In this document: piece by piece, positions 1,992 to 43,014 of the stretch
Numbering within the stretch: position 1 is the stretch's first letter
Layout: each line of letters opens with the position of its first letter
Origin: a virus
Direction: 5' to 3' (one strand)
Virus record (IMG/VR): IMGVR_UViG_3300046001_009504
Coordinates: 1-46,227 of that record
DNA length: 46,227 nucleotides
Position numbers and translations under genes: made by a program
The notes under the pieces: generated by a model
What the model was told of the DNA's origin: nothing
What the model saw: only the letters and a program-made list of their open reading frames with translations
Databases searched by the model: none

Positions 1992-3697
1992 TGGCTTTTA
2001 TAAAACCAGCAGGTGTACAAAACTATAATTTTTCTTTAGGAGATGTAGGTGCTTATTTAGGATTAAACCAAGGTCCTTTAAGTGGAACTGGTAAAGTTCG
2101 AATAAGTATGAAGGATGTTTATAATGTTATAGACACGGGCAATTTATCAGGAACTCCCCCATTACCATCAACAACTACTAATTTAAGAATACCATGGTTT
2201 TATGGAAGAGATGTTAATGGAGTTACAAATTATTCTTCATATTATAAATCAAATATATCAAATGGATCTGCAAATACATTTAATTATGGTATATATGGTA
2301 ATCAATGCCCATCAGATAGATTAAGTTATGGTGCTCCTAACGTAGGTACAACTAGAGACTTACATGGACATTTACTATCTGTAAATACAACTACAGGAGT
2401 ACGATACTACGCTAGTGCTTGCTGTTCTAATGCATGGCGGCCAGGAGTAACAATTTACGCAATTTCAGGATCCTCCTTACAAAGCAGTAATTGCATGTCA
2501 ATTTTAGCTAGTAATCATACTTACGATACAATTCCTGTAGGAGGAGCAATTGGAGCTGCTTGGTCACCAGTTTTAAATACTACATCTGGGTATGGAATGG
2601 TAGCAACAACAAATGATGGTGGTTATTATAACTTACAAGTACAAATGTATGCTTGGGCATATAATTATATTAGTCCTGCTAACAACCCTGGTTACGTAGC
2701 TCAAATTTCAAGTGGTTTTCCAGTTTTAGATAATGCTTTCGTAAACCCAGAAGACGCTTTATATGTTGGAAATCAAACAGCTGATTATGATGTTATTGCA
2801 ATTTTAGTTAACAGACAATGGCAAGGAAATATGGTTATATTCATTAAAAGAAATGGAGGTACTATTTCATCAATGGCCACTCAAACGTTAATGTCTCCTG
2901 GCCAATATCAAGATTATGTTGTACAAAGTGACAATATGCAAGCTGCATTAGCCTGGGACAACATAAATAATAAAATGTATTCATTTTACCTGTATTGGGG
3001 AGATCCAGGTCCATACAATTCAGCAATGGTTATTGCAAAATTTGATGTTAATTTAAATGGAACCGGAACTGTACTAACATCTAACATGACTACCTTTAAA
3101 ATATGGGATGCTTTCCAAAATCCTGGAATGAGAGCATTTGGGGGCACAATTATTTATAACGACGGTACAAATAATTATATGGCTATTGCCTGGAATCACC
3201 TTTCAGGAGGTAACTGGTATGTATACATGAGAATATACACTAATAACCCCGGTACTAACGCATTTAACTTATTGAATAGTACCACATATACATTATTTGG
3301 ACCCGGCACCTTATTTAACAATGGCGGTGAACGTATACATGTTGAAAGAATGGCAGACACACAAATAGTAAATGCTGCTGGAGTTGTTACTTCAAATATA
3401 ACTAATTTTACTGTTTCATATGTTAGCGATAATAGTAATACTGTAATTCGTTGGTATCAATTAAATCCAAGTACAAGTGCTATAACTTTAAGAGATACAA
3501 CAACACTAGCAAGTAACTATAGAGGACTATTGAGTCATAATTACAGTGCATTAACAGGACAATATTTTAATTCTACATTAGTAGTAAGCAGCCCAGCAGT
3601 TGGCGGAACCCCTAGAGACACTTATCCTTGGAATGGAAATAAAGAATATAACTATCAAGGCGTTTCTGATAATTCAACAATGATAAAAATAACTTAA
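1991..3697 (+). CDS. Putative tail fibre / adhesin protein
   Basis: A 568-residue protein whose ATG overlaps the stop of the collagen-like fibre gene. I recognise no named domain. It is rich in Asn, Thr, Ser, Tyr and Gly with few charged residues, as in beta-structured fibre or receptor-binding proteins. The N-terminal ~80 residues ([20 protein letters not shown] onward, ending near IPWFYGRD) look like a compact module, possibly the attachment domain. The rest shows repeated short beta-like stretches and could be a propeller- or jelly-roll-like tip. No signal peptide or membrane segment is seen. The structural role is inferred from position and composition. Confidence 0.6.
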   Translation: MAFIKPAGVQNYNFSLGDVGAYLGLNQGPLSGTGKVRISMKDVYNVIDTGNLSGTPPLPSTTTNLRIPWFYGRDVNGVTNYSSYYKSNISNGSANTFNYGIYGNQCPSDRLSYGAPNVGTTRDLHGHLLSVNTTTGVRYYASACCSNAWRPGVTIYAISGSSLQSSNCMSILASNHTYDTIPVGGAIGAAWSPVLNTTSGYGMVATTNDGGYYNLQVQMYAWAYNYISPANNPGYVAQISSGFPVLDNAFVNPEDALYVGNQTADYDVIAILVNRQWQGNMVIFIKRNGGTISSMATQTLMSPGQYQDYVVQSDNMQAALAWDNINNKMYSFYLYWGDPGPYNSAMVIAKFDVNLNGTGTVLTSNMTTFKIWDAFQNPGMRAFGGTIIYNDGTNNYMAIAWNHLSGGNWYVYMRIYTNNPGTNAFNLLNSTTYTLFGPGTLFNNGGERIHVERMADTQIVNAAGVVTSNITNFTVSYVSDNSNTVIRWYQLNPSTSAITLRDTTTLASNYRGLLSHNYSALTGQYFNSTLVVSSPAVGGTPRDTYPWNGNKEYNYQGVSDNSTMIKIT

Positions 3698-3698
3698 T

Positions 3699-4316
3699 AT
3701 GGTATACGATCACATAAATACAATATTTGTACAGGTTACAAAAACAGCATCAACCTCAATTCATAATTTATTAGCTACTGAAAGACAGCTTACATTACCT
3801 ATGACACATCTTAGATACAGTAAGTGTGTATTTGACGAAGCTATTAACGGCATTGATGTTTCACATTATTATAGTTTTTCTGTTGTTAGAAATCCATATG
3901 ACCGTTATATATCTTCATATTTTTTTATGAAGCAGATATACAACTGGAATAGAAGTTTTGATGAAAATCTAGATGAGTTATTAAATAAACCGCAAAACTG
4001 GTGGGACAATACATTTATACTTTTAAGACCCCAATGGTGGTTTGTATGTAATCACGATACTTACGCTGTTGAAGTTGATGAAATTTACAAATACGAAACT
4101 ATTAACACAGACTGGTCAACAATAGCAGATAAAATCAACTTAGCTAATCCAGAAGCAAATATATCAACAACTTTACCTACTTTAAACACTACTTCAAATA
4201 GAAACGAGTGGGAAAACTACTACACAGGTTCTCTAGGTCAGGAAAGAGCAGAAAAAGTAGAGCAGTTATATGATAAAGATTTTGAATTGTTTAACTACAC
4301 TAAATTAACATTCTAA
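3699..4316 (+). CDS. Sulfotransferase family protein
   Basis: A 205-residue protein with both PAPS-binding signatures of the sulfotransferase family: a 5'-phosphosulfate loop near residues 12-20 (VTKTASTSI) and a 3'-phosphate motif near residues 60-73 (SVVRNPYDRYISSY). Members transfer sulfate from PAPS to hydroxyls or amines of carbohydrates, proteins or small molecules. It begins one base after the fibre gene and is followed closely by an APS-kinase-like gene that could supply PAPS. The acceptor cannot be read from the sequence; fibre protein, virion glycan or host surface glycan are all possible. Confidence 0.8.
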   Translation: MVYDHINTIFVQVTKTASTSIHNLLATERQLTLPMTHLRYSKCVFDEAINGIDVSHYYSFSVVRNPYDRYISSYFFMKQIYNWNRSFDENLDELLNKPQNWWDNTFILLRPQWWFVCNHDTYAVEVDEIYKYETINTDWSTIADKINLANPEANISTTLPTLNTTSNRNEWENYYTGSLGQERAEKVEQLYDKDFELFNYTKLTF

Positions 4317-4540
4317 TGACAGCACAACAAATATATGACAAGTATGTAGTAAACTTTAATCCCCCCTCACCATGGACAATACCCTATACTGTATCTGTTG
4401 AGGACTATTATGTTGACCAAGTATACACTTTTTATGAAAAAAATGAAGCTATAGTTGTACCTGAATTACAGGCTATTATGGATCTTCCTAACTTTTATTG
4501 CTGGCCATTTGACGGTTTGAGTGTAATAGCAAGATTATGA
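4316..4540 (+). CDS. Small conserved-type phage protein of unknown function
   Basis: A 74-residue product I do not recognise. It is acidic and rich in Tyr, Pro and Trp, with no membrane segment or signal peptide. Its ATG overlaps the sulfotransferase stop (TAATG) and its own stop overlaps the start of the APS-kinase-like gene, so it is translationally coupled inside the putative sulfation operon. A helper role for either neighbour is possible but is only a guess from position. Confidence 0.55.
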   Translation: MTAQQIYDKYVVNFNPPSPWTIPYTVSVEDYYVDQVYTFYEKNEAIVVPELQAIMDLPNFYCWPFDGLSVIARL

Positions 4541-4941
4541 TATTGTGGTTTTATGGACAGCCTGGAGCAGGTAAGACAACGTTAGCTAACGCGCTAAACT
4601 TGCGTATTAATGGCATACAAGTTGATGGAGACGATGTGCGAAATGTATTTAACAATAAAGATTACTCAAAAGAGGGAAGAATAAAGAATTTAACATTAAT
4701 AAACAATATAGTTAGATTTTTAGACCATAAAAACTTTGATGTAATTGTGTCTGTAGTGTCACCTTATCAAGAAATTAGAGATCAAATGTTAGACTTAGAC
4801 ATAAAATATTTTTATGTTTACACAAGTGAAGTTAGAGGAAAAGAACAATTTTTTGTAGAAGATTTGGAAATTGGAAAAAATGATGTTATGTTAGACACAA
4901 CAAATAAAACTATAGATGAAGTACTCTCTCTTTATTGGTAG
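4537..4941 (+). CDS. Adenylylsulfate kinase-like protein (short CysC)
   Basis: A 134-residue P-loop kinase. The Walker A motif GQPGAGKTTLA lies at residues 7-17, followed by the APS-kinase-type DGDDVRNVF and an EGR..N segment near residues 33-55. CysC phosphorylates adenylylsulfate (APS) to PAPS. Normal CysC is about 200 residues; here the region that usually carries RDxKGLY and the lid is missing, and the protein passes directly to a C-terminal LDTTNKTIDEV that matches the family end. It may be a minimal APS kinase or a related kinase with another substrate. Its position between a sulfotransferase and a nucleotidyltransferase supports PAPS supply. The next gene overlaps its end by 26 bases in another frame. 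Confidence 0.75.
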   Translation: MILWFYGQPGAGKTTLANALNLRINGIQVDGDDVRNVFNNKDYSKEGRIKNLTLINNIVRFLDHKNFDVIVSVVSPYQEIRDQMLDLDIKYFYVYTSEVRGKEQFFVEDLEIGKNDVMLDTTNKTIDEVLSLYW

Positions 4942-5266
4942 ATGGCAACCTTGGCACGATGGTCATAGATGGTTGATCGATCAAAGATTAAACGAAGGTA
5001 AAAAGGTTTGGTTAGCAATCCGAGACGTGCCTACAGACGAAAATAACCCATATACTCCTAAACAAGTATTAGATAATTTAACCAATGAACTATTAGACTT
5101 AGTTCAAGAAGGCAAAATCATGATATCAATCATTCCAGACATTGAATCAGTTAACTATGGAAGAGGAGTAGGTTATGAAATTATAGAACATGTACCTCCA
5201 ACAGAAATTAAAGAAATCTCAGCAACTAAAATAAGAGAACAGTTACGAAACGATGGCAAATTATAA
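4916..5266 (+). CDS. HxGH cytidylyltransferase-like nucleotidyltransferase
   Basis: A 116-residue protein with the nucleotidyltransferase superfamily signature FIGRWQPWHDGHRWLID near residues 6-22 (HxGH present as HDGH) and a C-terminal ISATKIREQL matching the family's ISSTxIR. Relatives join a nucleotide to a phosphorylated or sulfated acid (NMN, phosphopantetheine, CTP-dependent reactions); ATP sulfurylase has the same fold. Because the gene overlaps an APS-kinase-like gene and lies near a sulfotransferase, it might form APS from ATP and sulfate. That is inference; an NMN-adenylyltransferase-like role is the main alternative. It overlaps the genes on both sides. Confidence 0.7.
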   Translation: MKYSLFIGRWQPWHDGHRWLIDQRLNEGKKVWLAIRDVPTDENNPYTPKQVLDNLTNELLDLVQEGKIMISIIPDIESVNYGRGVGYEIIEHVPPTEIKEISATKIREQLRNDGKL

Positions 5267-5456
5267 AAGACAAATAGCTAAAGCAATTACCTTCAGGGTG
5301 CTTGGTACAATAGATACGGTGCTAGTAAGTTGGTTTATTACCGGTAGCTTTGAAATAGGTGCTATTTTAGGAGGTATTGAAGTTGTTACAAAAATTATAC
5401 TGTATTTCCTTCACGAACGAGTATGGGATAAGTATATCAAATACGGGTTAGATTAA
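5253..5456 (+). CDS. DUF2061-like small membrane protein
   Basis: A 67-residue protein with two predicted membrane helices (around residues 18-31 and 36-52). The pattern RQIAKAITFRVLGTIDT followed by GGIEVVTKI and a terminal HERVWDKY matches my recollection of DUF2061 proteins, which I recall occurring with APS kinases in bacteria. Function is unknown; a membrane partner or sulfate-related role would suit the neighbours. It overlaps the previous gene by 14 bases and precedes the halogenase by 4 bases. Confidence 0.65.
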   Translation: MANYKRQIAKAITFRVLGTIDTVLVSWFITGSFEIGAILGGIEVVTKIILYFLHERVWDKYIKYGLD

Positions 5457-5460
5457 AACT

Positions 5461-6948
5461 ATGTCTAAACTCTCTAAAGTTGCAATTGTAGGAGGTGGAG
5501 CCGCAGGATGGTTAACCGCTCTCTACATAAATAAAATTCTACCCGAATCTCAAATTACTTTAATTGAAAGTGAAGCTATTGGTATTTTAGGAGCAGGTGA
5601 AGGATCAGTTCCTACACTGGTTGAATTTTTAAGATTTTTACAGATTGACGAACAAGAGTTTGTAAAAGAAACAAACGCAACACATAAACTAGGAATTTTA
5701 TTTGATAATTGGAACGGTGATAATAAAGACTACTTCCACTCATTCAGTGTTCTTCACCAGAAATTTAATTTTGCTTATGACGATGAAGGTGAATTAGTAA
5801 ATGAATTTTTTGGTTACCATTATCAAAACAACACACCTATTTTCTTAGGGGAAATAAGCGAACAGTTAGCACGTAATAATAAAGCACCTTTTATCGACGG
5901 TAAAATTGATGGTTCAAGTCAAATTGCAAACTACTCTTATCATTTTGATGCACATTTAGTTGCTAAATTTTTAAGGAACAAAGCAGAAGAAAGAGGAGTT
6001 AATAGAGTAGAAGGGGTTGTTAGTAACTTTATTCAAGATTCTGAAGGTAATGTTGTAAAAATTGTATTGCCTGACACTGAAGTAGAATGTGATTTTGTAT
6101 TTGATTGCAGTGGGTTTAGACGATTACTTATTGGTAATTTATTTAAATCTCCATGGAAATCATACACAGAACAACTTAAAATTAATACAGTTATTGCTTT
6201 TCAAATACCTCAATTTGATAATAAAATCGAACCGTACACTAAAGCTATTTGTATGAAAAACGGTTGGATGTGGCAAATTCCTTTACAAAACCGAATTGGG
6301 TGTGGTTATATTTTTGATAAAAATTACATCACAGCTGAAGAAGCTAAGTTAGAAGTAGAAGAACTTTTAGGACACAGCATAAACATAGTAAATAATATTA
6401 ACTTTGAAGCAGGTGCTTACCAAAAAGTCTGGATTAATAATTGTATAGCTATTGGATTAAGTTCAGCATTTACAGAACCTATTGAAGCAACCTCTATTTT
6501 TAACGCTATTAATCAATTGTGGGTTCTTAACGATACACAATTAAAAAATTATAATCAAGATTTCATTAAACAGTATAACGAATACACAAATAAAATGAAT
6601 GATGATGTTTTAGATTTTTTATACTTTCACTACTTAACAAAAAGAAGAGATACACCTTTTTGGAAGGAATATCAATCCACCACAACTACTCCCCCTAGTC
6701 TGCAAAGTAAGCTTACTCATTGGGAAAAATCAACATATCAAATAGATGATTTTAAAAATCACCCTTTTGGATTATTAAGCTGGTTAGAAGTAGGATTTGG
6801 ATTAAATTTATTTAATAAGGAACCTTTCATTTCACAGTTAAAGAAAACAAATGTTTTAAGAATGTATAAACACTTACAGTATCTTAAACTGTGGGGTGAA
6901 GAAATACTAAAGTACTCCGTTAACGAAAAACAATATTTAACAAAATAA
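5461..6948 (+). CDS. Flavin-dependent tryptophan-halogenase family protein
   Basis: A 495-residue protein of the Trp_halogenase family. It has an N-terminal FAD-binding GGGAAGW (residues ~11-17), a GAGEGSVPT loop, a candidate catalytic Lys in ATHKLGILFDNW (~residue 78), and a WxWxIP-type motif in GWMWQIP (~residues 268-274) that blocks monooxygenase activity in the family. Length is typical (~500). Such enzymes use FADH2, O2 and halide to make hypohalous acid and halogenate aromatic or phenolic carbons. A cyanophage homologue (VirX1) is known to iodinate substrates. A flavin reductase is needed and none is in this window, so the host probably supplies it. Substrate unknown. Confidence 0.88.
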   Translation: MSKLSKVAIVGGGAAGWLTALYINKILPESQITLIESEAIGILGAGEGSVPTLVEFLRFLQIDEQEFVKETNATHKLGILFDNWNGDNKDYFHSFSVLHQKFNFAYDDEGELVNEFFGYHYQNNTPIFLGEISEQLARNNKAPFIDGKIDGSSQIANYSYHFDAHLVAKFLRNKAEERGVNRVEGVVSNFIQDSEGNVVKIVLPDTEVECDFVFDCSGFRRLLIGNLFKSPWKSYTEQLKINTVIAFQIPQFDNKIEPYTKAICMKNGWMWQIPLQNRIGCGYIFDKNYITAEEAKLEVEELLGHSINIVNNINFEAGAYQKVWINNCIAIGLSSAFTEPIEATSIFNAINQLWVLNDTQLKNYNQDFIKQYNEYTNKMNDDVLDFLYFHYLTKRRDTPFWKEYQSTTTTPPSLQSKLTHWEKSTYQIDDFKNHPFGLLSWLEVGFGLNLFNKEPFISQLKKTNVLRMYKHLQYLKLWGEEILKYSVNEKQYLTK

Positions 6949-6949
6949 T

Positions 6950-6979
6950 TTGGATATTTAAAAAAAAGTTATTATAATA
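6950..6979 (+). promoter_or_regulatory. Predicted promoter, TTGG-N19-TATAAT class
   Basis: TTGGAT and TATAAT are separated by 17 bases with an A-tract between, ending 9 bases before the oxygenase ATG. The 30-base site matches the one at 39512-39541 at 26 positions by my hand alignment. It would start transcription within a few bases of the start codon, giving a very short or absent leader. Confidence 0.6.
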
Positions 6980-6987
6980 ATATTATT

Positions 6988-7569
6988 ATGTATTCTAGAC
7001 CTATATTTGAACCTCATTTAGAGGTAGACCAAACTAATTATTATTGGTTTGAAAATGGATTTTCTTCAGAAGAAGTTGACAAAATTCTTGATCTTTCAAA
7101 AAATTATGAATTTGAACAAGCTACTACTATATCTGGAGACCCAAAATCAATTAGAAATAGTACTATTAAATGGATGAATCCTAGTGAAGAAACTTCATGG
7201 GTTTATGATCGTTTAATGGGTTGCGTTAAAGAAGCTAACAACGTTTGGCAATTTAATCTTTACTCTATTTTAGATGATATCCAATACACAGAGTATAGAG
7301 GTGGAGGAGGTCATTATAATTGGCATATAGATATTGGCCCAGGAGCTATTTCACATCGTAAAGTATCCGTTGTAGTACAATTATCTGACTCTTCAGAATA
7401 TACTGGAGGTATATTAGAAGTAAGTACAGGATCTAATTCTTTAAAAGTTTCTAATAAAAAAGGAGCTGTAATTTTATTTCCTTCATTTTTACAACATCGA
7501 GTAACACCCGTAGCATCTGGACTAAGAAAAAGTTTAGTATTGTGGGCTGGAGGTGAACACTTTAAATAA
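6988..7569 (+). CDS. 2-oxoglutarate-Fe(II) dioxygenase (PKHD-type hydroxylase)
   Basis: A 193-residue protein with the double-stranded beta-helix signature of 2OG-Fe(II) oxygenases. The iron ligands are HID in YNWHIDIG (~residues 109-116) and the His in FLQHRVTPV (~residues 168-176), with the 2OG-binding Arg in GLRKSLVLW downstream. GGILEVSTG and FPSFLQHRV resemble PiuC/PKHD-type prolyl-hydroxylase-like proteins. It probably hydroxylates a protein side chain or small molecule. It has its own predicted promoter and sits between a halogenase and a GH130-like gene. In the collagen-like fibre, Pro occurs only at X positions, so classical Y-position prolyl hydroxylation is not supported. Confidence 0.85.
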   Translation: MYSRPIFEPHLEVDQTNYYWFENGFSSEEVDKILDLSKNYEFEQATTISGDPKSIRNSTIKWMNPSEETSWVYDRLMGCVKEANNVWQFNLYSILDDIQYTEYRGGGGHYNWHIDIGPGAISHRKVSVVVQLSDSSEYTGGILEVSTGSNSLKVSNKKGAVILFPSFLQHRVTPVASGLRKSLVLWAGGEHFK

Positions 7570-7570
7570 A

Positions 7571-8560
7571 ATGATAGGTAATTTAGTTAAATTAGTTTTA
7601 GACAAAGGAGGTTACGTATCTCATTTAAAAATTCCTTCTACTGTTAGTAAAGGAACAGGTTTATGTAATCCTTCTATTTTTGTAGACAATGATGGTACTA
7701 TTTTACTTAACTTAAGAAATGTAGGATATATTCTTTATCTTTGTGAAAATGAACAAAAATTTCAAGGACGTTGGGGACCTTTAGCTTATCTTCATCCAGA
7801 AAATGATCCTCATTTAAGAACAACCAATTTTTTATGTACTTTAGATCCTACAACTTTAGAAATTAATTCATATAAACAAGTAGACACATCAGAATTAGAT
7901 ATTATACCGGTGTGGGATTTTATTGGTTTAGAAGATGCTAGAGTAGTTCGTTGGGGAGGCAATTTATATATAACCGGAGTTAGAAGAGACACAAAAACTA
8001 ACGGAGAAGGTCGAATGGAACTTTCTGAAATAGATAGTTTAGAATCAGCTAATGAAATTTCTAGAGTTAGAATAGAACCTCCTAATAATCCTGATTCATA
8101 TTGTGAAAAAAACTGGATGCCTATAAATGATATGGATTACCATTATGTTAAATGGGCTAACCCCGCAGAAATTGTAAAAGTAGATCCCATTAATGGAACT
8201 AGTGAAACCGTATTTTTAGGAGAATTTAGAGAAATTAATAAAAATTACGATTTACGAGGAGGATCATCAGTAGTTAAATGGAAAGATTATTATTTGTGTG
8301 TTGTTCATGAAGTAGATTTTTGGCAAAATGAAAATAATAATAAAGATGGTATTTATAATCATCGAATTTTAGCATACGATGAAAATTGGAACATAGTAAA
8401 ATACTCAGATGTATTTAAGTTTATGACAGGTAGAATTGAGTTTGTTTGTGGGGCTGCGGTTATTGAAAATGATTTAATAATTACCTATGGATTTCATGAT
8501 AATGCTGCTTTTGCGTTAAAAATTCCAGAAAATGTTGTGGAGGAACTAATTAATGGATAA
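7571..8560 (+). CDS. GH130/GH43-like five-bladed beta-propeller protein
   Basis: A 329-residue product from ATG 7571; a GTG 18 bases upstream lies inside the preceding gene and is less likely. Repeated propeller-blade sequences are visible: GTGLCNPSIFVDNDGTILL, IGLEDARVVRWGGNLYITG, KNWMPINDMDYHYVKWANP, LRGGSSVVKWKDYYLCVVHE and IEFVCGAAVIENDLIITYG. The GxEDxR and YG.HD elements recall beta-mannoside phosphorylases (GH130), so it may cleave or bind a glycan. Catalytic identity is uncertain, and a non-enzymatic glycan-binding propeller is possible. It overlaps the next gene by 8 bases in the modification island. Confidence 0.65.
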   Translation: MIGNLVKLVLDKGGYVSHLKIPSTVSKGTGLCNPSIFVDNDGTILLNLRNVGYILYLCENEQKFQGRWGPLAYLHPENDPHLRTTNFLCTLDPTTLEINSYKQVDTSELDIIPVWDFIGLEDARVVRWGGNLYITGVRRDTKTNGEGRMELSEIDSLESANEISRVRIEPPNNPDSYCEKNWMPINDMDYHYVKWANPAEIVKVDPINGTSETVFLGEFREINKNYDLRGGSSVVKWKDYYLCVVHEVDFWQNENNNKDGIYNHRILAYDENWNIVKYSDVFKFMTGRIEFVCGAAVIENDLIITYGFHDNAAFALKIPENVVEELING

Positions 8561-9785
8561 AATTTTAAAAAACTTTATAGAAAAACCTTACGACCCTGAA
8601 TCTAATCTTTGGTTTGGAGAACAATATTATCAAGAAGAACATAAATCGGCTGCTTTAACATTATTTTTAAGAGCAGCAGAATATAGTCTTGATAAAAATA
8701 AAGATTTGACCTATGAATCTTTAATTAAAGTAGCGTTATGTTTAAAAGGATTAGAAGGTAGGCCACATTCTGTAAGAGGAGCAATTTTAAATGCTATTAC
8801 TTTTGATAGAGAGCGACCGGAAGCCTATTATCATTTAAGTTATGATCATCAAGTAAAAAATGAATGGCAGGAATCTTATTTAGCTGCGGTTCAAGGTTTA
8901 GATAAACTAAAAAATCTTAAATCTACATTAACTGATATAGATTTTCCTGGTGAATATGCTTTAATTTTTCAAAAAGCTGTAGCAGGATGGTGGATAGGGT
9001 ATTGGGATGAATCTAGAACTTTATTTAGACATATTTTAGATAATTTTTCAATGCGTGATGAATTTGTTACGGCTTGTTATAGTAACTTAGCTAAAATTAA
9101 CGGAACTTTATGTCCTATATTGAATTACACAAAAGAAAATCATTCAAAATTAAGATATAAATTTAAAAATTCAGAAAAAATTGAAAAAAATTATTCTCAA
9201 ACATATCAAGACTTATTTATTTTATCTATACTTGATGGAAAGGAAAAAGGTACTTATGTTGAAATAGGAGCAGCAGATCCATTTCATAATAGTAACACAG
9301 CTCTTTTAGAGAAAAATTTTGGGTGGACAGGAGTATCTTTAGAAATTAATGAAGAAGAAGTAAATAGTTTTAATTCTAAACGGAATAATAAATGTATTTT
9401 ACAAGACGCATTGAAAACTAACTATGAAAAATTATTTATAGAAAATAACTTAGACACAGTTATAGACTACCTACAGTTAGACATAGAACCTGCTGAAAAT
9501 ACGTTCAATACTTTATTATTAATTCCTTTTGAAAAATATGAATTTAGAATAATTACTTTTGAGCATGATTATTATTTAAATCATTCTGTAGATTATAGAA
9601 GACTTTCAAGAAAATTCTTAGAATCTTTAGGTTATGTAAGAGTAGTAGGAAATATTTCTCCAGATAAAAATAGTCCATTTGAAGATTGGTGGGTAAACCC
9701 AGATTTAGTAGATCCTAAAATTTTAAAAACAATGACTGATCTTTCAGACGAAACTAAAAGAGCAGATCAATATATGCTTTTATGA
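8553..9785 (+). CDS. TPR-like plus FkbM-family methyltransferase
   Basis: A 410-residue two-part protein. Residues ~1-190 are helical with TPR-like elements (alternating small and aromatic residues such as YYHLSYDHQVKNEWQESYLA). Residues ~210-390 form a class I SAM methyltransferase of FkbM type: SQTYQDLFILS lead-in, motif I GTYVEIGAADP, acidic ribose-binding residue in VSLEINEEEV, and YLQLDIEPAE. FkbM-type enzymes O-methylate sugars or polyketides, so it may methylate glycans made by the downstream glycosyltransferases. It overlaps both neighbours by a few bases. Confidence 0.75.
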   Translation: MDKILKNFIEKPYDPESNLWFGEQYYQEEHKSAALTLFLRAAEYSLDKNKDLTYESLIKVALCLKGLEGRPHSVRGAILNAITFDRERPEAYYHLSYDHQVKNEWQESYLAAVQGLDKLKNLKSTLTDIDFPGEYALIFQKAVAGWWIGYWDESRTLFRHILDNFSMRDEFVTACYSNLAKINGTLCPILNYTKENHSKLRYKFKNSEKIEKNYSQTYQDLFILSILDGKEKGTYVEIGAADPFHNSNTALLEKNFGWTGVSLEINEEEVNSFNSKRNNKCILQDALKTNYEKLFIENNLDTVIDYLQLDIEPAENTFNTLLLIPFEKYEFRIITFEHDYYLNHSVDYRRLSRKFLESLGYVRVVGNISPDKNSPFEDWWVNPDLVDPKILKTMTDLSDETKRADQYMLL

Positions 9786-10627
9786 TCAATCAAGATTGGA
9801 AAATAACGCCATATGCTACTATGGAATTTACAACAAATCTTCCTAAAAAAGGATGTGTTGTTGATTGTATATTTTGTCCTCAAAGAACATTAGTTAAAAA
9901 TTATAATGGAACTAAACACTTATCTTTAGAGGATTTTAAAAAAATACTAGATAAAATTCCTATCGATGTTAGAATTACATTTGCTGGATTTACAGAACCT
10001 TGGACTAATAGACACTGTACTGATATGCTGCTACATGCTTATGAAAAAGGCTATAAAGTAGCAGCATTTACAACAGCTGTAGGAATGACAGTAGAAGATG
10101 TAGAAAAGATTAAAGACATTAAATTTGACAATGGACCAAATGCTGGATTTGTATTACATTTGCCTGATCAAGAGAGAATGGCAAAACATCCTATTACTCC
10201 TCGTTACATAGAAGTAATTGAAACTTTTGGAAAATACAGAGATACTTTTAACCCGTTTTATTTAATGTCTATGGGAACCGTTCACGAATCAGTTAAACAT
10301 GTATTTGATCGTGTTCCTAACCCAGAAATGTGGTCAAGAGCTGGTAACTTAATTGGTGAAGCTATTATGAAACCTGAATTATTAAATGTAAAAGAATTAT
10401 TCAGGTCAGTATATCATGGTGAGTTACCAAAAACTTGTGGATGTCTAGAAAATTTATATCATAATGTAGTGCTTCCTAATGGAGATGTATCTCTATGCTG
10501 TATGGATTATTCTTTAAGTTATATTTTAGGTAATATGTTTACACAAAGTTACGAAGAGATAGTCCCTAAGTTAAATACTTGTTATGATATGTGTCGTTAT
10601 TGTGAAAATGGAGTAAACCCTAATTAA
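9782..10627 (+). CDS. Radical SAM protein with SPASM-like C-terminus
   Basis: A 281-residue protein. The [4Fe-4S]/SAM motif CVVDCIFC (CX3CX2C) is near residues 25-32, and FAGFTEPW matches the GGE-like SAM-contact region. The C-terminal third has a Cys-rich SPASM-like pattern: CGCLENLYHNVVLPNGDVSLCC, then a YILGNM element and CYDMCRYC. SPASM enzymes often modify peptides or proteins, or sugars, by radical chemistry. The start overlaps the FkbM gene stop by four bases. The substrate is unknown; in this island a radical modification of a virion protein or sugar is plausible. Confidence 0.85.
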   Translation: MINQDWKITPYATMEFTTNLPKKGCVVDCIFCPQRTLVKNYNGTKHLSLEDFKKILDKIPIDVRITFAGFTEPWTNRHCTDMLLHAYEKGYKVAAFTTAVGMTVEDVEKIKDIKFDNGPNAGFVLHLPDQERMAKHPITPRYIEVIETFGKYRDTFNPFYLMSMGTVHESVKHVFDRVPNPEMWSRAGNLIGEAIMKPELLNVKELFRSVYHGELPKTCGCLENLYHNVVLPNGDVSLCCMDYSLSYILGNMFTQSYEEIVPKLNTCYDMCRYCENGVNPN

Positions 10628-10646
10628 AATATATTAAAATTAAATT

Positions 10647-11231
10647 ATGACTAATAAAGAAATTATTGATGAAGCATATCATTTAGGAATGCTACAAAAT
10701 CCATATGAAATTGAAAATGCTCTTGAATTTGTAAAAAAATTAAAAGTAAAAAATTTTATGGAAATTGGCACAGATCAAGGAGGAACATTTGTATGTTGGA
10801 GTAGAGTATCAGATCCAGATGGTCTTAGAGTAAGTGTAGATTGGGCTCATGGACCCTGGGGTGTAAATAATTTTGACATTCAAGCTAGAAATAACAAACT
10901 TTTTAGTTTAGGATCAAATGTTCATATTTTAGATGGAGATTCTCATGCTGAATCCATGTATAATTCTGTTAAATCTATTATAGGAGATAAAAAATTAGAT
11001 TTTTTATTTATTGATGGTGATCACTCACACTTAGGAGTAAAATTAGATTACCATATGTATAAAGAGTTTGTAAAACCAGGAGGATGGATTGGGTTTCACG
11101 ACATTAAAGGTACAGAAACCCACCATCGTCAAGGATGTTATGTTGATTATTTCTGGAATGAATTACAAGGAGAAAAAACATGGTTCTTGGCAGACTCAGA
11201 TTGGGGTGGAATTGGTCTTATTCAAAAATAA
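10647..11231 (+). CDS. Class I SAM methyltransferase (CmcI/Methyltransf_24-like)
   Basis: A 194-residue Rossmann methyltransferase. Motif I is FMEIGTDQGGTFVCW near residues 37-51, an acidic strand end follows in RVSVDWA, and motif IV/post-IV is LDFLFIDGDHSHLGVKLDY then VKPGGWIGFHDI. This pattern is shared by cephalosporin-hydroxylase-like (CmcI) and Methyltransf_24 proteins common in surface polysaccharide clusters. It likely methylates a sugar or small molecule. It sits 19 bases after the radical SAM gene, and a 29-base gap precedes the next gene. Confidence 0.75.
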   Translation: MTNKEIIDEAYHLGMLQNPYEIENALEFVKKLKVKNFMEIGTDQGGTFVCWSRVSDPDGLRVSVDWAHGPWGVNNFDIQARNNKLFSLGSNVHILDGDSHAESMYNSVKSIIGDKKLDFLFIDGDHSHLGVKLDYHMYKEFVKPGGWIGFHDIKGTETHHRQGCYVDYFWNELQGEKTWFLADSDWGGIGLIQK

Positions 11232-11260
11232 AAATAATTAGAAACACCAGTAATAAAATT

Positions 11261-12259
11261 ATGAAAGAATTAATATTAATCTGTGCATATTGTCCAGATG
11301 ATAGAAGAGAAAATATTTTAAATGACTGTATTAATTCATTACAAAAATGTAGAAATGAATATGATATTTTAATATCTAGTCATACTGAAATTCCTAAATA
11401 TATCTCACAAAAAGTTGATTATACTTTTTATGATAAAAATAATGATTTAATAACCGATTTAAAATACTTAAATCAACCCTGGTTTTCTCCAACAAACAGC
11501 ATGACAATATTATCAACTTATGTTAGTAAATTTAGTCCTTATCTTGCCGTTTATAGATTGTTAATTTTTGGATTAGGATTTGCTAAGATGTTTAAATATA
11601 AAAAAATTCACTATATTGAGTATGATACTATAATAAATGATTTATCTGAAATTTATGATAATTCTAAATTACTAGATAATTATGACAATGTTGTAATACA
11701 AAAAGAAGAAAAAAGTCGTGAATCTAATATATCTTGGCCCATTCATAATTTTATGTCTTTTAAAGTTGATAAAATTGATGAAATGCTTACTACATATGAT
11801 AAAGAAAAACTTTTAGAAATTTTGTTAAAAAGTACTTCAAAATGCAATGAAAAAATTACTAATGATATAATTAAACTAAATAATAATACAGTTTATATTA
11901 AAGATTATAATATTGTTAAAAATAAAATTCAATTTTCATTATCAGATGATATACTAGAAAAAGGTCATAACTGTTGGGCTATTCCTTTTTATAATACTAA
12001 AGAAGATAAAATTTATGCACTTGTTTGGAATAATGTAGATAAAAACCCAATAAATGTAAATTTTATTATAAATAATAAAAAAATATTATCATTTGAAAAT
12101 ATTAAAAAATTTAATTGGAGTATGGATATAATTGGTGATATTCAAGAAATTAATTCAATTTTAATTTTAGTTAATAATGAAGTAAAAATAAATATTGAAT
12201 TTGATGAAAATAATAGAGAATTATTTAAACAAACAAATTACTCTCAATATAAAATATGA
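11261..12259 (+). CDS. Putative GT-A-like glycosyltransferase
   Basis: A 332-residue protein starting at ATG 11261 (MKELILICAYCPDD); an open extension upstream overlaps the methyltransferase and looks non-coding. The first ~200 residues resemble a nucleotide-sugar transferase fold: N-terminal strand, QKCRNEYDILISSHTEIP, and an acidic IHYIEYDTI that may replace the DxD motif. The last ~110 residues are beta-rich and resemble the C-terminal part of the next protein, suggesting a shared accessory domain. No family is firmly recognised. The gene is notably A/T-rich and overlaps the next start (ATGA). Confidence 0.55.
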   Translation: MKELILICAYCPDDRRENILNDCINSLQKCRNEYDILISSHTEIPKYISQKVDYTFYDKNNDLITDLKYLNQPWFSPTNSMTILSTYVSKFSPYLAVYRLLIFGLGFAKMFKYKKIHYIEYDTIINDLSEIYDNSKLLDNYDNVVIQKEEKSRESNISWPIHNFMSFKVDKIDEMLTTYDKEKLLEILLKSTSKCNEKITNDIIKLNNNTVYIKDYNIVKNKIQFSLSDDILEKGHNCWAIPFYNTKEDKIYALVWNNVDKNPINVNFIINNKKILSFENIKKFNWSMDIIGDIQEINSILILVNNEVKINIEFDENNRELFKQTNYSQYKI

Positions 12260-13176
12260 AAAAAATAGCTTTAATAAGCACTTTTTGTAATACTCCAGAA
12301 AAAGTTCATATTCTTGTAGAAAATGTTAAAATTTTAAAATCTTTAGGAGTAGATGTAATGGTTAATAGTTTTATTTCTCTTGAACCAGAAATAATAAATT
12401 ATTTTGATTTTTATTTTCAAACTAAAGAAAACCCCCTTTTACGGTGGCCAGAAAGAGCTAATACATTTTGGTGGAAACAAGTTAATCTTTATAATAAAGA
12501 AATTATGCTTCATAGAGATGTAGATGATTATGGATGGGCAGCAATATATCAAATAAAAAAACTTTCTGAAATAGCATTAACTTTTAATTATGATATTTTT
12601 TATCATATTACTTATGATATAATTATATCAAACGAGTTAACTCAAGATATATTAAATAATAAAACAAATACTACTTACCATACTATAAATCCTAATGATC
12701 CTCTTGATCAATGGAATGTGTCGCCTCTTTTTATAAGCTTTGATAAAGAAAATTTAATAAAATTTTTAAGTAAAATAGATAAAGATCTATATATACAAAG
12801 ATATGGTTTTGCTGAAGATTTTATTGAGCTCTTACTAGAAGATATACCCATGATAAAATCAGAATTTCCTGTTGAAGATTCAATTACATATATAAATGGA
12901 TGTAATAATGACTTATTTAATTATTCTCAAAGTGAAAATTATAAAATATTTTTTAGTAATAATTGGACAAATAGATTTTCTTTTGTTGTTTATGATATAA
13001 AAGAAGGTGATTTAAAAGTTGTATTTAATGATAAAGAAATTTATAATATAGAAAATTTAGTTCCTCAAGGATTTGAAACAGATGTTAATTCTTTTAAAGT
13101 TATATTTAATAATGAAATTATAGAATACAACGATATTATTAATGATATACCTAGAAATGTTATAAGTTATGAATAA
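12256..13176 (+). CDS. Putative glycosyltransferase-like protein
   Basis: A 306-residue protein. It begins MKKIALISTFCNTPEKVHIL, a typical first strand and helix of GT-A or GT2-like transferases. Asp-rich segments (HRDVDDYGW, FYHITYDIIIS) could hold the metal/nucleotide site. The middle WNVSPLFISFDKENLIKFL and the beta-rich C-terminus resemble the preceding protein in layout. I cannot assign a sugar or linkage. It overlaps the previous gene by 4 bases and the next by 8, so the three transferases are probably co-translated. Confidence 0.55.
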   Translation: MKKIALISTFCNTPEKVHILVENVKILKSLGVDVMVNSFISLEPEIINYFDFYFQTKENPLLRWPERANTFWWKQVNLYNKEIMLHRDVDDYGWAAIYQIKKLSEIALTFNYDIFYHITYDIIISNELTQDILNNKTNTTYHTINPNDPLDQWNVSPLFISFDKENLIKFLSKIDKDLYIQRYGFAEDFIELLLEDIPMIKSEFPVEDSITYINGCNNDLFNYSQSENYKIFFSNNWTNRFSFVVYDIKEGDLKVVFNDKEIYNIENLVPQGFETDVNSFKVIFNNEIIEYNDIINDIPRNVISYE

Positions 13177-15457
13177 ACTAAAAATCCAAACCCATTGTTC
13201 TTATGTAGGAACTACTGGTTATAATAATCACACTAGAGATTTTTTTAGAGAATTATCTAAACATATACAGTTAAAAGTTCGAAATTTTACTGTTGGAAAA
13301 TCATGGAATGGCTACAATGAAACCTGTCATGATGGAGAAAAATATTTAGATAATCTAGATAAATCTCTTTTATATAAACAAATTCTTTGGAACAATAATA
13401 GAGAAATGGAAGATTTTAAAATATATTCTTCTCTAAATAAAGAATTTAATTACGATATTGACTTAATTTTAAACGAAACCAATCACCATTTATTCTATCA
13501 GAAATATAATAGACCAAAAATAGCATATAATGTTTGGGAATCAACTCTTCAACCAGAAGAATTTTTTAATAAATTAAAAGAATATGATGAATTATGGGTC
13601 CCTTCAAAATGGCAAAGAGATTGTTCTATTGCTCAAGGATATGACCCTAATAAAGTTAAAGTTGTTCCTGAAGGTGTTGATATTCATACATTTTATCCTG
13701 AAGAAACAACTCATGACTTAACATCAGATGGTAGGTTTAAATTTTTCTTGGCAGGAAGATGGGACTATAGAAAATCAACCAAAGAAATTATTGAAACATT
13801 TCTTAAAACTTTTGATAAAGATGAACCTGTTGATTTAATTATATCAATAGATAATATGTGGGGTAAAGATATGGATGGGTTTGAAACTACAGAAGAAAGG
13901 TTAGCTCATTATAATTTATTAGACCCACGTGTTAAAATTATTCACTTTCCATCAAGAGAGGATTATATTAAAATATTAAAATCATGTAATGTATTTGTAT
14001 CTTGTGCTCGTTCTGAAGGTTGGAATTTACCCTTAATTGAAGCAATGGCTTGTGGAATACCATCTATTTATTCTAATTGTTCTGGTCAATTAGAATTTGC
14101 TGAAGGCAAAGGAATACCAGTAAATATTTTAGAAGAAAAACCAGCAGATACTAATTCATATGCTCGATATAAAATGAGTGATCTTCCTGGTAATTATTAT
14201 GAACCTGATTTTAATCATTTATCTCAACAAATAAGATTTACTTATGAATTTTATGACCAAGTTAAAGAAAAATCATTACAAGAATCTAAAGAAATTAGAA
14301 GAGATTTTAGTTGGGAAAAAATAGGTGAAATTGGTTTAAAAACAATATTAGAATTTAATCAAAAGTATCCTTATATTCCTCAAAAAAATGAAATAAAAGT
14401 TAGTTATATTGATGGTCCTAAAGTTGAAATTATAGGCGATAACGATGAAGAATATGATGTTGAATTTTTAGACGAAAATGATAATGTTGTTCATAAAAGT
14501 ACTATTACAAATAATATGTGGACATTATGTAGTCGAAAATACTATACTAAATGGAAAATTAAAGTTAATGGAACTATTGTAGATGAATTTAATCTTACTG
14601 ATAAACGTGTATTAATTGGACTAGAATCAAAGAGTATTGGTGATACTATTGCTTGGACTCCATATGCTGTAGAATTTGCAAAAAAACATAATTGTAAAGT
14701 AATTTTAAGTACATTTCATAACGAATGGTTTAAAGGTTTAGATACTTATAAAGACATTGAGTTCATAGAACCAGGACAATCAACAGAATGTCACGTAATA
14801 TATAAAATAGGATGGATAAGAGGAGAGAGTGGAAAGTGGGATAATTTTGAATATTATCCTAATTATATTCAATCCCAACCTTTACAAAAAACTGCATCTG
14901 ATATTTTAGGTTTAGAATTTAAAGAGTTAAATTATGGTATAAATTTTATTCCAAAACCAAAAGCAACAAAAACAGATTATATAGTTATAGCTCCTGAATC
15001 AACAACAGGTTGTAAAGAATGGCCATATGATAGTTGGGTAGCATTATCTAAAATGTTACGTGAATTAGGTTACACTGTAGTTACCCTTACAATTAAACCC
15101 TATAATATAAAAGGTAATTTAAATATTCATGGAAAAACATTAAATGAATCTATGGACATTTTACATAACTCAAAACTTTTAGTAGGATTAAGTTCAGGTT
15201 TATCTTGGATAAATTGGGCTTTAGGAAAACAAACCGTAATGATAAGTGGTTTTTCTCAAAAAGATCATGAATTTTTAAGTAATAATGTAAGAATTCAAAA
15301 TGAATATGCTTGTAATTCTTGTTGGGGTAATCCAAACTTTACATTTGATGCGGGTGATTGGGATTGGTGTCCTATTTGGAAAGGAACAGATAAGCAACAC
15401 ATTTGTGAAAAATCTATATCTCCTTTAACGGTATTTAATTCTCTACCAAACATTTAA
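13169..15457 (+). CDS. GT4 plus TibC/BAHT-like O-heptosyltransferase fusion
   Basis: A 762-residue two-enzyme fusion. Residues ~1-390 are a GT4 glycosyltransferase: WVPSKWQRD, VPEGVDIHTFYP, LAGRWDYRKS and the EX7E region SEGWNLPLIEAMACG. Residues ~400-760 match TibC/Aah-type heptosyltransferases (BAHT family, GT9-like): a beta-rich lead (DGPKVEII to WTLCSRKYYTKWKI), SKSIGDTIAWTPYAVEFAKK, IAPESTTGCKEWPYDSW, and a C-terminal metal-finger pattern CNSC...CP...C (CX2CX15CX11C) within NEYACNSCWGNPNF and DAGDWDWCPIW. TibC transfers ADP-heptose to Ser/Thr of beta-helical autotransporters. Fused to a GT4 in a phage next to fibre and tail genes, it may O-glycosylate virion proteins. The donor sugar is unknown. 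Confidence 0.8.
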   Translation: MNKLKIQTHCSYVGTTGYNNHTRDFFRELSKHIQLKVRNFTVGKSWNGYNETCHDGEKYLDNLDKSLLYKQILWNNNREMEDFKIYSSLNKEFNYDIDLILNETNHHLFYQKYNRPKIAYNVWESTLQPEEFFNKLKEYDELWVPSKWQRDCSIAQGYDPNKVKVVPEGVDIHTFYPEETTHDLTSDGRFKFFLAGRWDYRKSTKEIIETFLKTFDKDEPVDLIISIDNMWGKDMDGFETTEERLAHYNLLDPRVKIIHFPSREDYIKILKSCNVFVSCARSEGWNLPLIEAMACGIPSIYSNCSGQLEFAEGKGIPVNILEEKPADTNSYARYKMSDLPGNYYEPDFNHLSQQIRFTYEFYDQVKEKSLQESKEIRRDFSWEKIGEIGLKTILEFNQKYPYIPQKNEIKVSYIDGPKVEIIGDNDEEYDVEFLDENDNVVHKSTITNNMWTLCSRKYYTKWKIKVNGTIVDEFNLTDKRVLIGLESKSIGDTIAWTPYAVEFAKKHNCKVILSTFHNEWFKGLDTYKDIEFIEPGQSTECHVIYKIGWIRGESGKWDNFEYYPNYIQSQPLQKTASDILGLEFKELNYGINFIPKPKATKTDYIVIAPESTTGCKEWPYDSWVALSKMLRELGYTVVTLTIKPYNIKGNLNIHGKTLNESMDILHNSKLLVGLSSGLSWINWALGKQTVMISGFSQKDHEFLSNNVRIQNEYACNSCWGNPNFTFDAGDWDWCPIWKGTDKQHICEKSISPLTVFNSLPNI

Positions 15458-15486
15458 ATTTAATAGCATTTTATAGATTCTTTTTC

Positions 15487-15494
15487 ATATTTAT
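15487..15494 (+). promoter_or_regulatory. ATATTTAT motif, candidate late promoter element
   Basis: An ATATTTAT box 21 bases before the tail sheath ATG, in the 58-base gap that separates the glycosyltransferase island from the tail module. It is one of nine such boxes in intergenic gaps. Confidence 0.4.
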
Positions 15495-15515
15495 TACTAG
15501 AAACAATCTAATAAA

Positions 15516-17711
15516 ATGGCAGAAGTACTATTATCTCCGGGTGTATCATTGAGAGAAAACGACACCTCTCAAATAACTTCAGGCCCTATTACAGCAGGAT
15601 TAGCTTTAATAGGCCCTACTGTTAAAGGTCGTGTTAATATTCCAACTCTTGTAACAACTTACAGCGATTTCCAAAGTAAATTTGGAGATTTATTTGAAAG
15701 CGCATCAGCTAACTATGAATTTTTAACTTCTATAGCTGCTTACAATTACTTCCAACAAGGTGGTGAAAGTATTTTAGTAACCCGAGTTACCTCTGGTTCA
15801 TATACTTCAGCTACTTCTAGTATAGGTAACCAAGTTCCAGCAACAAATGGAGCTTACGCTAGTTGCAGCTTTACATTAAATACTTATCAAGATTTAACTG
15901 TTGTTCCTTCAAATGAAGTAACTCCAAACTTCCAAACTAACTTTATATTTGGAAATTCTTGGTATAAATTTATAGCTGTAAACACTTCAGGAAGTGGTAC
16001 TATTCCTCAAGATGATGCTGATGGATTAGTTTATTTCTATGCTTGGAATAGCGGATCAGATAGTAGAGCTACATTAAACCAAAATCTTCAAACTAAAATG
16101 AATACTGTTTTAGGTTCGAGCGGTGCTGGTTTATTTACAGTTAACTATAATTCTGGTAATAACACTATTGCATTAACTGCTTCTCTTCAAGGAGTTGCTT
16201 ATAACGGATCTTATATTACATTAGATGATCCTGTTCCTTACTATGATGCTAATTATGCTCTTATTGGATATGTAACAAGTGGTACTGGATTATTAGGAAC
16301 TACAGCAAATGGTGCTAATGGAAACCCAGGATATGCATTTACTTTAGAAACTATTTCTGAAGGAGTTATTATGAATAATAACCAAGGACTTCAGTCAAAT
16401 GGTTCATTAATAAGTGGTAGTGCAGATAACGTAAGATGGCAAGTTGTTAGCCCTGATACAGCTAGTGGTACGTTTACATTGTTAATTCGTCAAGGTGATG
16501 ATACAACAACAAATCCTAACGTATTAGAAAGCTTTACTAATGTAAGTTTAGATCCTAATCAAGCTAACTACATTGAAGCAGTAGTAGGTAATTACAGCCA
16601 AACCGTAGCTTATGATAGCTCAACAGGTCAATACTATATTCAAGGTAGTGGATCATATGCTAATGCTTCTCGCTATGTACGAGTAAAAGAAGTATTAACA
16701 CCAACTTATAATTATTTCAACAACAACGGTATTGCAAAAACTCAATACTACAATTCAATTCCAACAACTGGATCAGGTAGTTTTGGTGGTGCTTTTGGAA
16801 ACGATTTAGATTACACAACTAACTTATATCAAAACATTAGCACAGTTACTCAAGGATTAGTAGCATCTGACTATACTATAGTTGATGATATTTTAGCTAA
16901 CCCAGATGAATACAACTTCCAATTAATTTCAGCTCCTGGTATTACACAACAATACCAATCAACCGTAGTATCTCAATATATTACTATGGCTGAAGAAAGA
17001 GGTGATTGTTTCTATATTACTGATTTAGTAGGATATGGAGCTACAATTAATACTCCTGGTATTTTAGCTAACCAATTAAATACAAACTATGCTGCTGCTT
17101 ACTGGCCTTGGGTTCAAGTATTAAGTGCTGCTACAGGTAAGTTAGTATGGGTTCCAGCTTCAACAGTAATGCCTGGTGTTTATGCATTTAACGACCGAGT
17201 AAGTGCTGAATGGTTCGCTCCTGCTGGTTTAAACAGAGGTGGTGTTGCTGGTGCTTTACAAGCTGAAAGAAAATTAGGCACAAACGATCGCGATACTTTA
17301 TATCAAAACAAAGTTAACCCAATTGCTAGTTTCCCTGGTGTTGGTTTAGTAGCTTATGGTCAGAAAACATTACAGACCAAAGCTTCAGCTCTTGATCGTA
17401 TTAACGTTCGTCGTTTGTTGATTAACTTAAAGAGATATGTTAGAGTAGTTGCTGAAAGCTTATTATTCGAACAAAATACTTTAACTACAAGAAATAACTT
17501 CGTTTCACAAGTTAACCCATACATGGAATCAGTGCAACAAAGACAAGGTCTTTATGCATATAAGGTAGTAATGGATGATAGTAACAATACTCCTGACGTA
17601 ATTGACAGAAACCAATTGGTAGGAGCTATTTACATTCAACCTGCTAAAACAGTTGAATTTATCTACATTACCTTTAACATTACCCCAACTGGTGTGACTT
17701 TTGGAGCTTAA
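15516..17711 (+). CDS. Tail sheath protein
   Basis: A 731-residue contractile sheath protein (T4 gp18 equivalent). The N-terminus EVLLSPGVSLRENDTSQIT and ITAGLALIGPTVKGRVNIP are hallmarks of the family, as is the C-terminal domain with RRLLINLKRYVRVVAESLLF, MESVQQRQGLYAYKVVMDD and VEFIYITFNITPTG, which forms the conserved hexameric ring core. Length is close to T4 gp18 (~660). A variable, Gly/Ser/Asn-rich middle (~residues 90-480) is probably the surface-exposed part and could be a target for the upstream glycosyltransferases. An ATATTTAT box precedes it, and the tube gene follows after 31 bases. Confidence 0.93.
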   Translation: MAEVLLSPGVSLRENDTSQITSGPITAGLALIGPTVKGRVNIPTLVTTYSDFQSKFGDLFESASANYEFLTSIAAYNYFQQGGESILVTRVTSGSYTSATSSIGNQVPATNGAYASCSFTLNTYQDLTVVPSNEVTPNFQTNFIFGNSWYKFIAVNTSGSGTIPQDDADGLVYFYAWNSGSDSRATLNQNLQTKMNTVLGSSGAGLFTVNYNSGNNTIALTASLQGVAYNGSYITLDDPVPYYDANYALIGYVTSGTGLLGTTANGANGNPGYAFTLETISEGVIMNNNQGLQSNGSLISGSADNVRWQVVSPDTASGTFTLLIRQGDDTTTNPNVLESFTNVSLDPNQANYIEAVVGNYSQTVAYDSSTGQYYIQGSGSYANASRYVRVKEVLTPTYNYFNNNGIAKTQYYNSIPTTGSGSFGGAFGNDLDYTTNLYQNISTVTQGLVASDYTIVDDILANPDEYNFQLISAPGITQQYQSTVVSQYITMAEERGDCFYITDLVGYGATINTPGILANQLNTNYAAAYWPWVQVLSAATGKLVWVPASTVMPGVYAFNDRVSAEWFAPAGLNRGGVAGALQAERKLGTNDRDTLYQNKVNPIASFPGVGLVAYGQKTLQTKASALDRINVRRLLINLKRYVRVVAESLLFEQNTLTTRNNFVSQVNPYMESVQQRQGLYAYKVVMDDSNNTPDVIDRNQLVGAIYIQPAKTVEFIYITFNITPTGVTFGA

Positions 17712-18231: not shown

Positions 18232-18257
18232 AAAATATATACTTAAAAGGTACAAAG

Positions 18258-18285
18258 GAAGTCTGGTTTTTGCCAGACTTTTTTT
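18258..18285 (+). terminator. Rho-independent terminator after the tail tube gene
   Basis: The stem AAGTCTGG pairs with CCAGACTT around a TTTTTG loop, followed by a T-run. It ends the sheath-tube transcript. Its loop resembles those at 31088 and 40544. Confidence 0.9.
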
Positions 18286-18293
18286 GTTTGTAT

Positions 18294-42989: not shown

Positions 42990-43009
42990 TTAAAAAATTT
43001 ATTATTATA
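42980..43009 (+). promoter_or_regulatory. Predicted promoter, TTGG-N19-TATTAT
   Basis: TTGGAA and TATTAT with the class-specific 17-base spacing, overlapping the end of the phosphoribosyltransferase gene. It ends 5 bases before ATG 43015, so the transcript would start about at that ATG. Confidence 0.5.
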
Positions 43010-43014
43010 TGTAT

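Follow-up and report, generated by a model that had tools for sequence, protein, structure and literature searches.

The island between the fibre and tail sheath genes

The window analysed here, a 46,227-base virus record of IMG/VR (IMGVR_UViG_3300046001_009504), is a fragment of a T4-like myovirus. Between its collagen-like fibre operon and its tail sheath gene lies an island of modification genes (positions 3699-15457), the subject of this work (Table 1). The best annotated relative of the sheath is that of Flavobacterium phage immuto (45.5%), followed by that of Microcystis phage Mel-JY01. A Shine-Dalgarno sequence precedes few start codons of the window genes; this fits Bacteroidota, and the phage probably infects a member of that phylum.

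Gene families were assigned with Pfam, PHROGs and NCBIfam profiles. The island contains 14 open reading frames (ORFs), all on the plus strand; the first-pass annotation of this DNA had the strand and coordinates right and counted thirteen genes. The overlaps it described as 4-8 bases do exist, but range from 1 to 26 bases, and other junctions are gaps of up to 39 bases. The ORF with a GTG start at 7553 probably begins at the ATG at 7571, which leaves a 1-base gap to the 2-oxoglutarate (2OG) hydroxylase gene. For most genes, Pfam and PHROGs bore out the enzyme classes listed in that annotation. Three points were absent from it: the APS kinase-NT-DUF2061 genes as a putative sulfate-activation unit, the link to collagen-like proteins and the protein-glycosyltransferase domain.

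Table 1. Features of the island and its flanks (positions in the window)
Feature	Position	Strand	Evidence
Collagen-like fibre, C-terminal S74 chaperone domain	3..1991	+	PF01391 6.5e-37, PF13884 3e-12; frame open to window start
Second fibre-like protein, family-less	1991..3697	+	45% homologue, same place in L002/L003
ST, carbohydrate-type sulfotransferase	3699..4316	+	Sulfotransfer_2 PF03567 1.1e-16; phrog_3347
orf74, 74 amino acids (aa), no family	4316..4540	+	70% homologue in L002/L003
APSK, short APS-kinase-like kinase	4537..4941	+	APS_kinase PF01583 5.6e-14; PDB 7yq0 2e-10
NT, 116-aa HIGH-type nucleotidyltransferase, candidate noncanonical ATP sulfurylase	4916..5266	+	CTP_transf_like PF01467 2e-4; gene context
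DUF2061 small membrane protein	5253..5456	+	PF09834 2e-22
Hal, flavin-dependent halogenase, motifs intact	5461..6948	+	Trp_halogenase PF04820 7e-115; RebH 9e-73, VirX1 1e-57
2OG, PKHD-type Fe(II)/2-oxoglutarate hydroxylase	6988..7569	+	2OG-FeII_Oxy_3 PF13640 1e-14; PDB 3dkq 5e-7
GH130L, GH130/GT108-like five-bladed propeller	7571..8560	+	AlphaFold2 pLDDT 77; Foldseek 7fip 2.7e-9
TPR + FkbM-like methyltransferase	8553..9785	+	sub-cutoff PF05050; fused to GH130L in other phages
Radical SAM/SPASM protein	9782..10627	+	SPASM/Radical_SAM Pfam families
MT24, Methyltransf_24 methyltransferase	10647..11231	+	PF13578 6e-15
GTx, probable glycosyltransferase	11261..12259	+	homologue of GTy
GTy, probable GT-A glycosyltransferase	12256..13176	+	AlphaFold2 pLDDT 63; Foldseek glycogenin 4e-5
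GT4-TibC, GT4 fused to TibC/Aah-type protein O-heptosyltransferase domain (about 14381-15457)	13169..15457	+	TIGR04414; TibC 4rap 7e-35
Conserved right boundary with promoter-like ATATTTATT at 15487	15461..15515	+	alignment of relatives
Tail sheath, right flank	15516..17711	+	phrog_23 2e-74
Intrinsic terminator 3' of tube gene	18252..18287	+	stem with other bases, same place in L002

That the island is inserted between fibre and sheath genes had been suggested earlier, and comparison with related phages (loci denoted by L numbers) agrees. Relatives with sheaths 92-96% identical carry differing gene subsets upstream of the sheath; their alignment is conserved for ~55 bases before the sheath start and divergent immediately upstream of that stretch. 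In L040 the last six island genes are kept at 98-99%. Present in L037 are 2OG-GH130L-FkbM, another FkbM methyltransferase, MT24, GTy and GT4-TibC, while ST, APSK, NT and the halogenase are absent next to its sheath (no NT was found in the whole 176-kb record). Loci L036, L039 and L042 have GH130L-FkbM (L036 also the radical SAM gene) and then the sheath, without a GT4-TibC gene; L043 has different genes at the site. Judged by these alignments, the island is a variable, exchangeable cassette.

Such a site could be a hot spot collecting unrelated auxiliary genes, with halogenase, 2OG hydroxylase and sulfation genes in separate host-metabolism roles and no single pathway. It is hypervariable, as is the g15-g18 region of cyanomyoviruses, where 4-14 genes are inserted within the structural module and the insert likewise ends at the sheath gene (Millard et al. 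2009, as reported in PMC2984593). Halogenase and 2OG genes are found elsewhere without the other island genes. GC content at third codon positions is 24-27% from ST to DUF2061 (3699-5456) versus 9-16% from 2OG to GT4-TibC (6988-15457); this contrast suggests different origins of the cassette halves, and the ST-DUF2061 block may have arrived separately. We nevertheless consider this account unlikely. In L002/L003 (sheath 60%) the order ST-orf74-APSK-NT-Hal-2OG is kept at 68-81%, and these genes together with GH130L-FkbM recur in the same order at 68-83% identity, so that the grouping is not due to chance. The order 2OG-GH130L-FkbM is kept in several relatives, and in other phages GH130L and TPR-FkbM are fused as one 739-aa protein. 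The island differs from the g15-g18 region in its other flank, formed by collagen-like fibre genes (3-3697) and not by g15 (sheath stabiliser), and in its genes for modification instead of carbon or photosynthetic metabolism.

The motif ATATTTATW, likely the phage's own (late) promoter as judged by its placement, has nine sites in the window, eight of them on the plus strand (15487, 17713, 18294, 19325, 21637, 28480, 37278 and 39208). These eight are all intergenic although only ~2% of the window is non-coding, and each is shortly upstream of a gene start (sheath, tube, hub, tape measure and four others). No plus-strand site is located within the island of the window. In L305 one site precedes the collagen/S74 fibre gene and the next, 10.7 kb downstream, precedes the sheath, with 2OG-to-GT4-TibC in between. 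L003 is less clean: there, sites occur within its version of the island, beside extra fibre-like genes. The distribution suggests that the cassette is part of the fibre transcription unit and that the sheath has its own start. The T4-type late promoter TATAAATA was rejected, having no excess over shuffled sequences, and ATATTTATW took its place; sigma-70-like sites showed no clear excess. The terminator after the tube gene is strong, and its L002 counterpart has different stem bases.

A TibC-type domain and collagen-like fibres

The product of the last island gene has Pfam GT4 and GT9 matches within one protein. By sequence, its C-terminal half is a member of the TibC/Aah family of bacterial autotransporter heptosyltransferases (BAHT; TIGR04414), scoring 200.7 bits, barely above the curated equivalog cutoff of 200; four relatives score 204.6-217.5 bits. 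A Mel-JY01 protein annotated as methyltransferase FkbM (L450:4750-8430, 1226 aa) has the same GT4 and TibC-type domains and scores 317.4 bits. TibC (PDB 4RAP) is the best PDB match of the domain, which keeps catalytic Asp-110 as well as Thr-226, Lys-230 and Trp-305 of TibC. The iron finger Cys-x2-Cys-x15-Cys-x11-Cys is present as in TibC (Cys-339/342/358/370); of 86 viral ORFs, 79 have exactly this spacing. TibC Pro-300 is replaced by Ser, the residue that AAH has there. TibC and AAH glycosylate protein Ser (PMC4358343), which makes protein glycosylation likelier than polysaccharide synthesis. Unlike these enzymes, the window domain is fused to GT4, has no autotransporter and is phage-encoded beside fibre and sheath genes.

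At least 272 viral contig stretches contain relatives of the domain. In 79 viral loci with the domain, 74 ORFs also carry a GT4 domain; a sheath gene is present in 58 of the 79, always 1-5 genes downstream.

The two preceding genes, GTx and GTy, encode distant mutual homologues (23%). The low-confidence AlphaFold2 model of GTy (predicted local distance difference test, pLDDT, 63) is GT-A-like, with glycogenin as the Foldseek match. For GTx, no family and no PDB match were found by sequence.

The GH130L product has no sequence family match. Its AlphaFold2 model, built with six related sequences, has a five-bladed propeller fold, and the best Foldseek matches are a beta-1,2-mannobiose phosphorylase, a gut mannoside synthase and Leishmania mannosyltransferases. 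The protein thus looks like a GH130/GT108-like mannoside enzyme in predicted structure, in line with the GH130-like propeller named in the first-pass annotation. The next gene product combines TPR with an FkbM-like domain that stays below the PF05050 cutoff of 22.7 bits (14.5 bits, E-value 0.04, in the window; 20.8 bits, 4.5e-4, in the L037 homologue); a PDB sequence search with this domain returned nothing.

GH130L genes are associated with collagen-like genes. A collagen-like ORF (defined as 12 or more triplets in the GH130L-seeded scan) is present in 48 of 78 GH130L viral loci and is the gene directly upstream in 21 of these; the comparison loci have one in 3 of 78 cases (NT) and 2 of 80 (sheath). 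The signal survives clustering at 75% identity (13 of 21 GH130L clusters). In the reverse scan, seeded with collagen, GH130L was counted with a clean profile, as earlier iterated profiles had drifted (radical SAM labels on GH130L proteins); it was found in 17 of 73 loci, always downstream, versus 3 of 78. Because the loci vary in length and lack independence, the p-values overstate the case, yet the effect is clear in both direction and size.

The window fibre has at least about 160 Gly-X-Y triplets, with Thr as the commonest Y residue. In a counted run of 104 triplets, Thr occupies Y in 49 and Pro in none. Prolyl 4-hydroxylation of the collagen by the 2OG enzyme was considered and is not proposed, because no Pro occurs at Y in this run and the enzyme is PKHD/YbiX-like. 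Glycosylated BclA of Bacillus (PMC8968730) is likewise a Gly-X-Y protein rich in Thr at Y; the window adds adjoining glycosyltransferase and methyltransferase genes, and the phage fibre is a candidate for glycosylation.

These observations bear on the choice between two readings offered in the first-pass annotation: the virion may carry an unusual glycan or decorated residue, or the host surface may be remodelled against superinfection. Remodelling of host surface polysaccharide or glycoproteins in infection, for instance blocking superinfection or freeing virions from receptors, would suit the GT4/GT9, GT-A, FkbM-like, sulfotransferase and radical SAM genes, families typical of surface-polysaccharide clusters, and in some loci of SAR11 and Marinimicrobia, relatives of NT are found near genes that look like surface-sugar genes. 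Still, one glycosyltransferase belongs to the protein-modifying TibC family, GH130L goes with collagen fibre genes, and no flippase, polymerase or undecaprenyl phosphate sugar transferase was found among the island genes. No specific evidence for host-surface remodelling emerged, and we regard it as quite unlikely. Modification of the virion is the better of the two readings, given the TibC-type domain and the promoter-like motif that places the cassette in the fibre unit.

The sulfation module and the nucleotidyltransferase NT

ST requires 3'-phosphoadenosine 5'-phosphosulfate (PAPS), and both PAPS-binding motifs, KTASTS and RNPYDRYISSY, can be read from its sequence; a PDB sequence search with ST returned nothing. 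orf74, between the sulfotransferase and kinase genes, is family-less and keeps this place in L002/L003. APSK scores 52.9 bits against a Pfam cutoff of 21.1 and 65.8 bits against an NCBIfam cutoff of 127, and its lid region is short. NT matches CTP_transf_like and sub-cutoff NadM models only, and no known ATP sulfurylase family (Sat PF01747, CysDN). Identity as a nicotinamide mononucleotide adenylyltransferase (NadM) was rejected (27.4 bits versus a cutoff of 127). Compared with canonical sulfate activation (Sat or CysDN plus CysC), the module shares an APS-kinase-like protein, a DUF2061 partner and a sulfotransferase, but in place of Sat/CysDN it has the NadM-like nucleotidyltransferase.

Gene neighbourhoods associate NT with sulfate activation. 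The APSK gene is upstream of NT in 75 of 78 viral-contig loci, and the commonest viral neighbours of NT include sulfotransferase families, as well as DNA methyltransferases. In most Bacteroidota loci read, DUF2061 genes adjoin CysH-CysD or CysQ. Cellular NT genes occur in Marinimicrobia, a few Bacteroidota and SAR11. In SAR11, NT is followed by a membrane gene and aprB-aprA in 27 of 68 loci; in L189:7959-11587, L128 and other Pelagibacterales loci, the NT homologue is directly upstream of aprM-aprB-aprA. Across 117 Pelagibacterales genomes the NT/AprB co-occurrence counts were 77/7/7/26 (Fisher 1e-13, kinship uncorrected), and the two genes are at most 4 kb apart in 36 of the 77. Canonical Sat is present in six of the 117 genomes, five of them also with NT. 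Strong CysD/CysH matches occur in nine, none of which has NT or AprB. In 61 genomes of one Marinimicrobia order, NT was found in five and Sat in 34, never both (p about 0.014, calculated by hand). NT was present in 1 of 80 Flavobacteriales, namely the query's own genome.

'Ca. Pelagibacter ubique' has AprBA and lacks sat and cysDNCHIJ (PMC5069961), and most SAR11 lack ATP sulfurylase (PMC10356861). A text search of the literature, which is no proof of absence, returned no known noncanonical ATP sulfurylase and no SAR11 solution. From these associations, the simplest reading is that NT may form or cleave adenosine 5'-phosphosulfate (APS). ADP-forming phosphorolysis of APS would be compatible with the SAR11 setting as well; it does not suit the phages, which need to make APS. 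We narrowly favour the view that NT represents a new minimal ATP sulfurylase family: with its APSK partner it would make PAPS in the phage without host Sat/CysDN, for sulfation of virion glycans, and the same family would be the missing SAR11 enzyme working with AprBA. The claim is that NT works like an ATP sulfurylase, not that it is a Sat. NT is thus a named candidate for a recorded gap in SAR11; if true, sulfite oxidation in the most abundant marine bacteria would have to be reinterpreted.

Other settings of the kinase-NT pair were also observed. In many other phages (L202-L257 and others), APSK-NT precedes an N6/N4 DNA methyltransferase gene in a conserved setting with no sulfotransferase nearby. 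Stenotrophomonas phage Bhz60 (L114:5584-6324) encodes a kinase-NT fusion next to NADAR; this fusion may serve a purpose other than sulfate activation, and a link to nicotinamide adenine dinucleotide is possible.

Proposed function of the cassette

By sequence, Hal is a flavin-dependent halogenase, 'tryptophan' being only the family name. It scores 384.9 bits to PF04820, and GxGxxG, WxWxIP and the catalytic Lys and Glu are present in alignment with RebH. Flavin halogenases are common in cyanophages and pelagiphages; VirX1 of cyanophage Syn10 and PrnA of Pelagibacter phage HTVC008M belong to the same family, and in HTVC008M PrnA is also adjacent to a 2OG gene upstream of the sheath. The window halogenase differs from these in being joined to a sulfation module, and its identity to annotated phage relatives does not exceed 44%. 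Natural-product clusters also contain halogenase, radical SAM, methyltransferase and sulfotransferase genes, so the island might make a diffusible halogenated or sulfated small molecule. With no non-ribosomal peptide synthetase, polyketide synthase or terpene synthase among the island genes, and virion genes as neighbours, we consider this highly improbable.

With fair confidence, we read the island as an exchangeable virion protein-glycosylation cassette of the fibre operon of this T4-like myovirus with a probable Bacteroidota host. A promoter upstream of the collagen-like fibre genes would also drive transcription of the cassette. GT4-TibC would attach the first sugar to Ser/Thr residues in a protein of the virion, with the Gly-X-Thr/Gln fibre as the likeliest target, and the glycan would be lengthened by GTx, GTy and the GH130-like mannosyl enzyme. 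Sugars or aromatic parts could be altered by both methyltransferases, the 2OG hydroxylase, the radical SAM protein and the halogenase. NT would convert sulfate and ATP to APS and the kinase APS to PAPS, with which the sulfotransferase would sulfate the product. Swapping of cassettes would then alter virion surface chemistry. We infer every substrate, the order of steps and the benefit.

Several points weigh against this proposal. Arg-286 of TibC, which binds sugar, is Ser in the window protein, so donor and acceptor may differ from those of TibC, and TibC modifies Ser, not Thr (PMC4358343). A collagen-like ORF is present in only 31 of the 79 TibC-domain loci, and the fibre is taken as the target from its neighbourhood. 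The promoter motif is computational. Finally, APSK-NT genes are also located beside DNA methyltransferase genes in other phages.

The combination of enzymes had been called undescribed in phage. This is only partly right, because phage halogenases, including the characterised VirX1, the 2OG and PrnA genes before the HTVC008M sheath and the hypervariable pre-sheath region of cyanophages are known. No description of the complete combination, including a PAPS-type module and a TibC domain, was found; new here are this set of genes, a TibC-type enzyme encoded next to the fibre and sheath genes of a phage, and NT. The proposal gives phage modification islands a concrete, testable target, the glycosylation of collagen-like fibre proteins through a TibC-type protein O-glycosyltransferase domain, and offers a way in which cassette swapping could let phages vary the surface chemistry of their virions.

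Elsewhere in the window (41475-45586), genes that read by eye as QueC, QueD, QueE and FolE point to a 7-deazaguanine pathway, which may modify phage DNA or tRNA.

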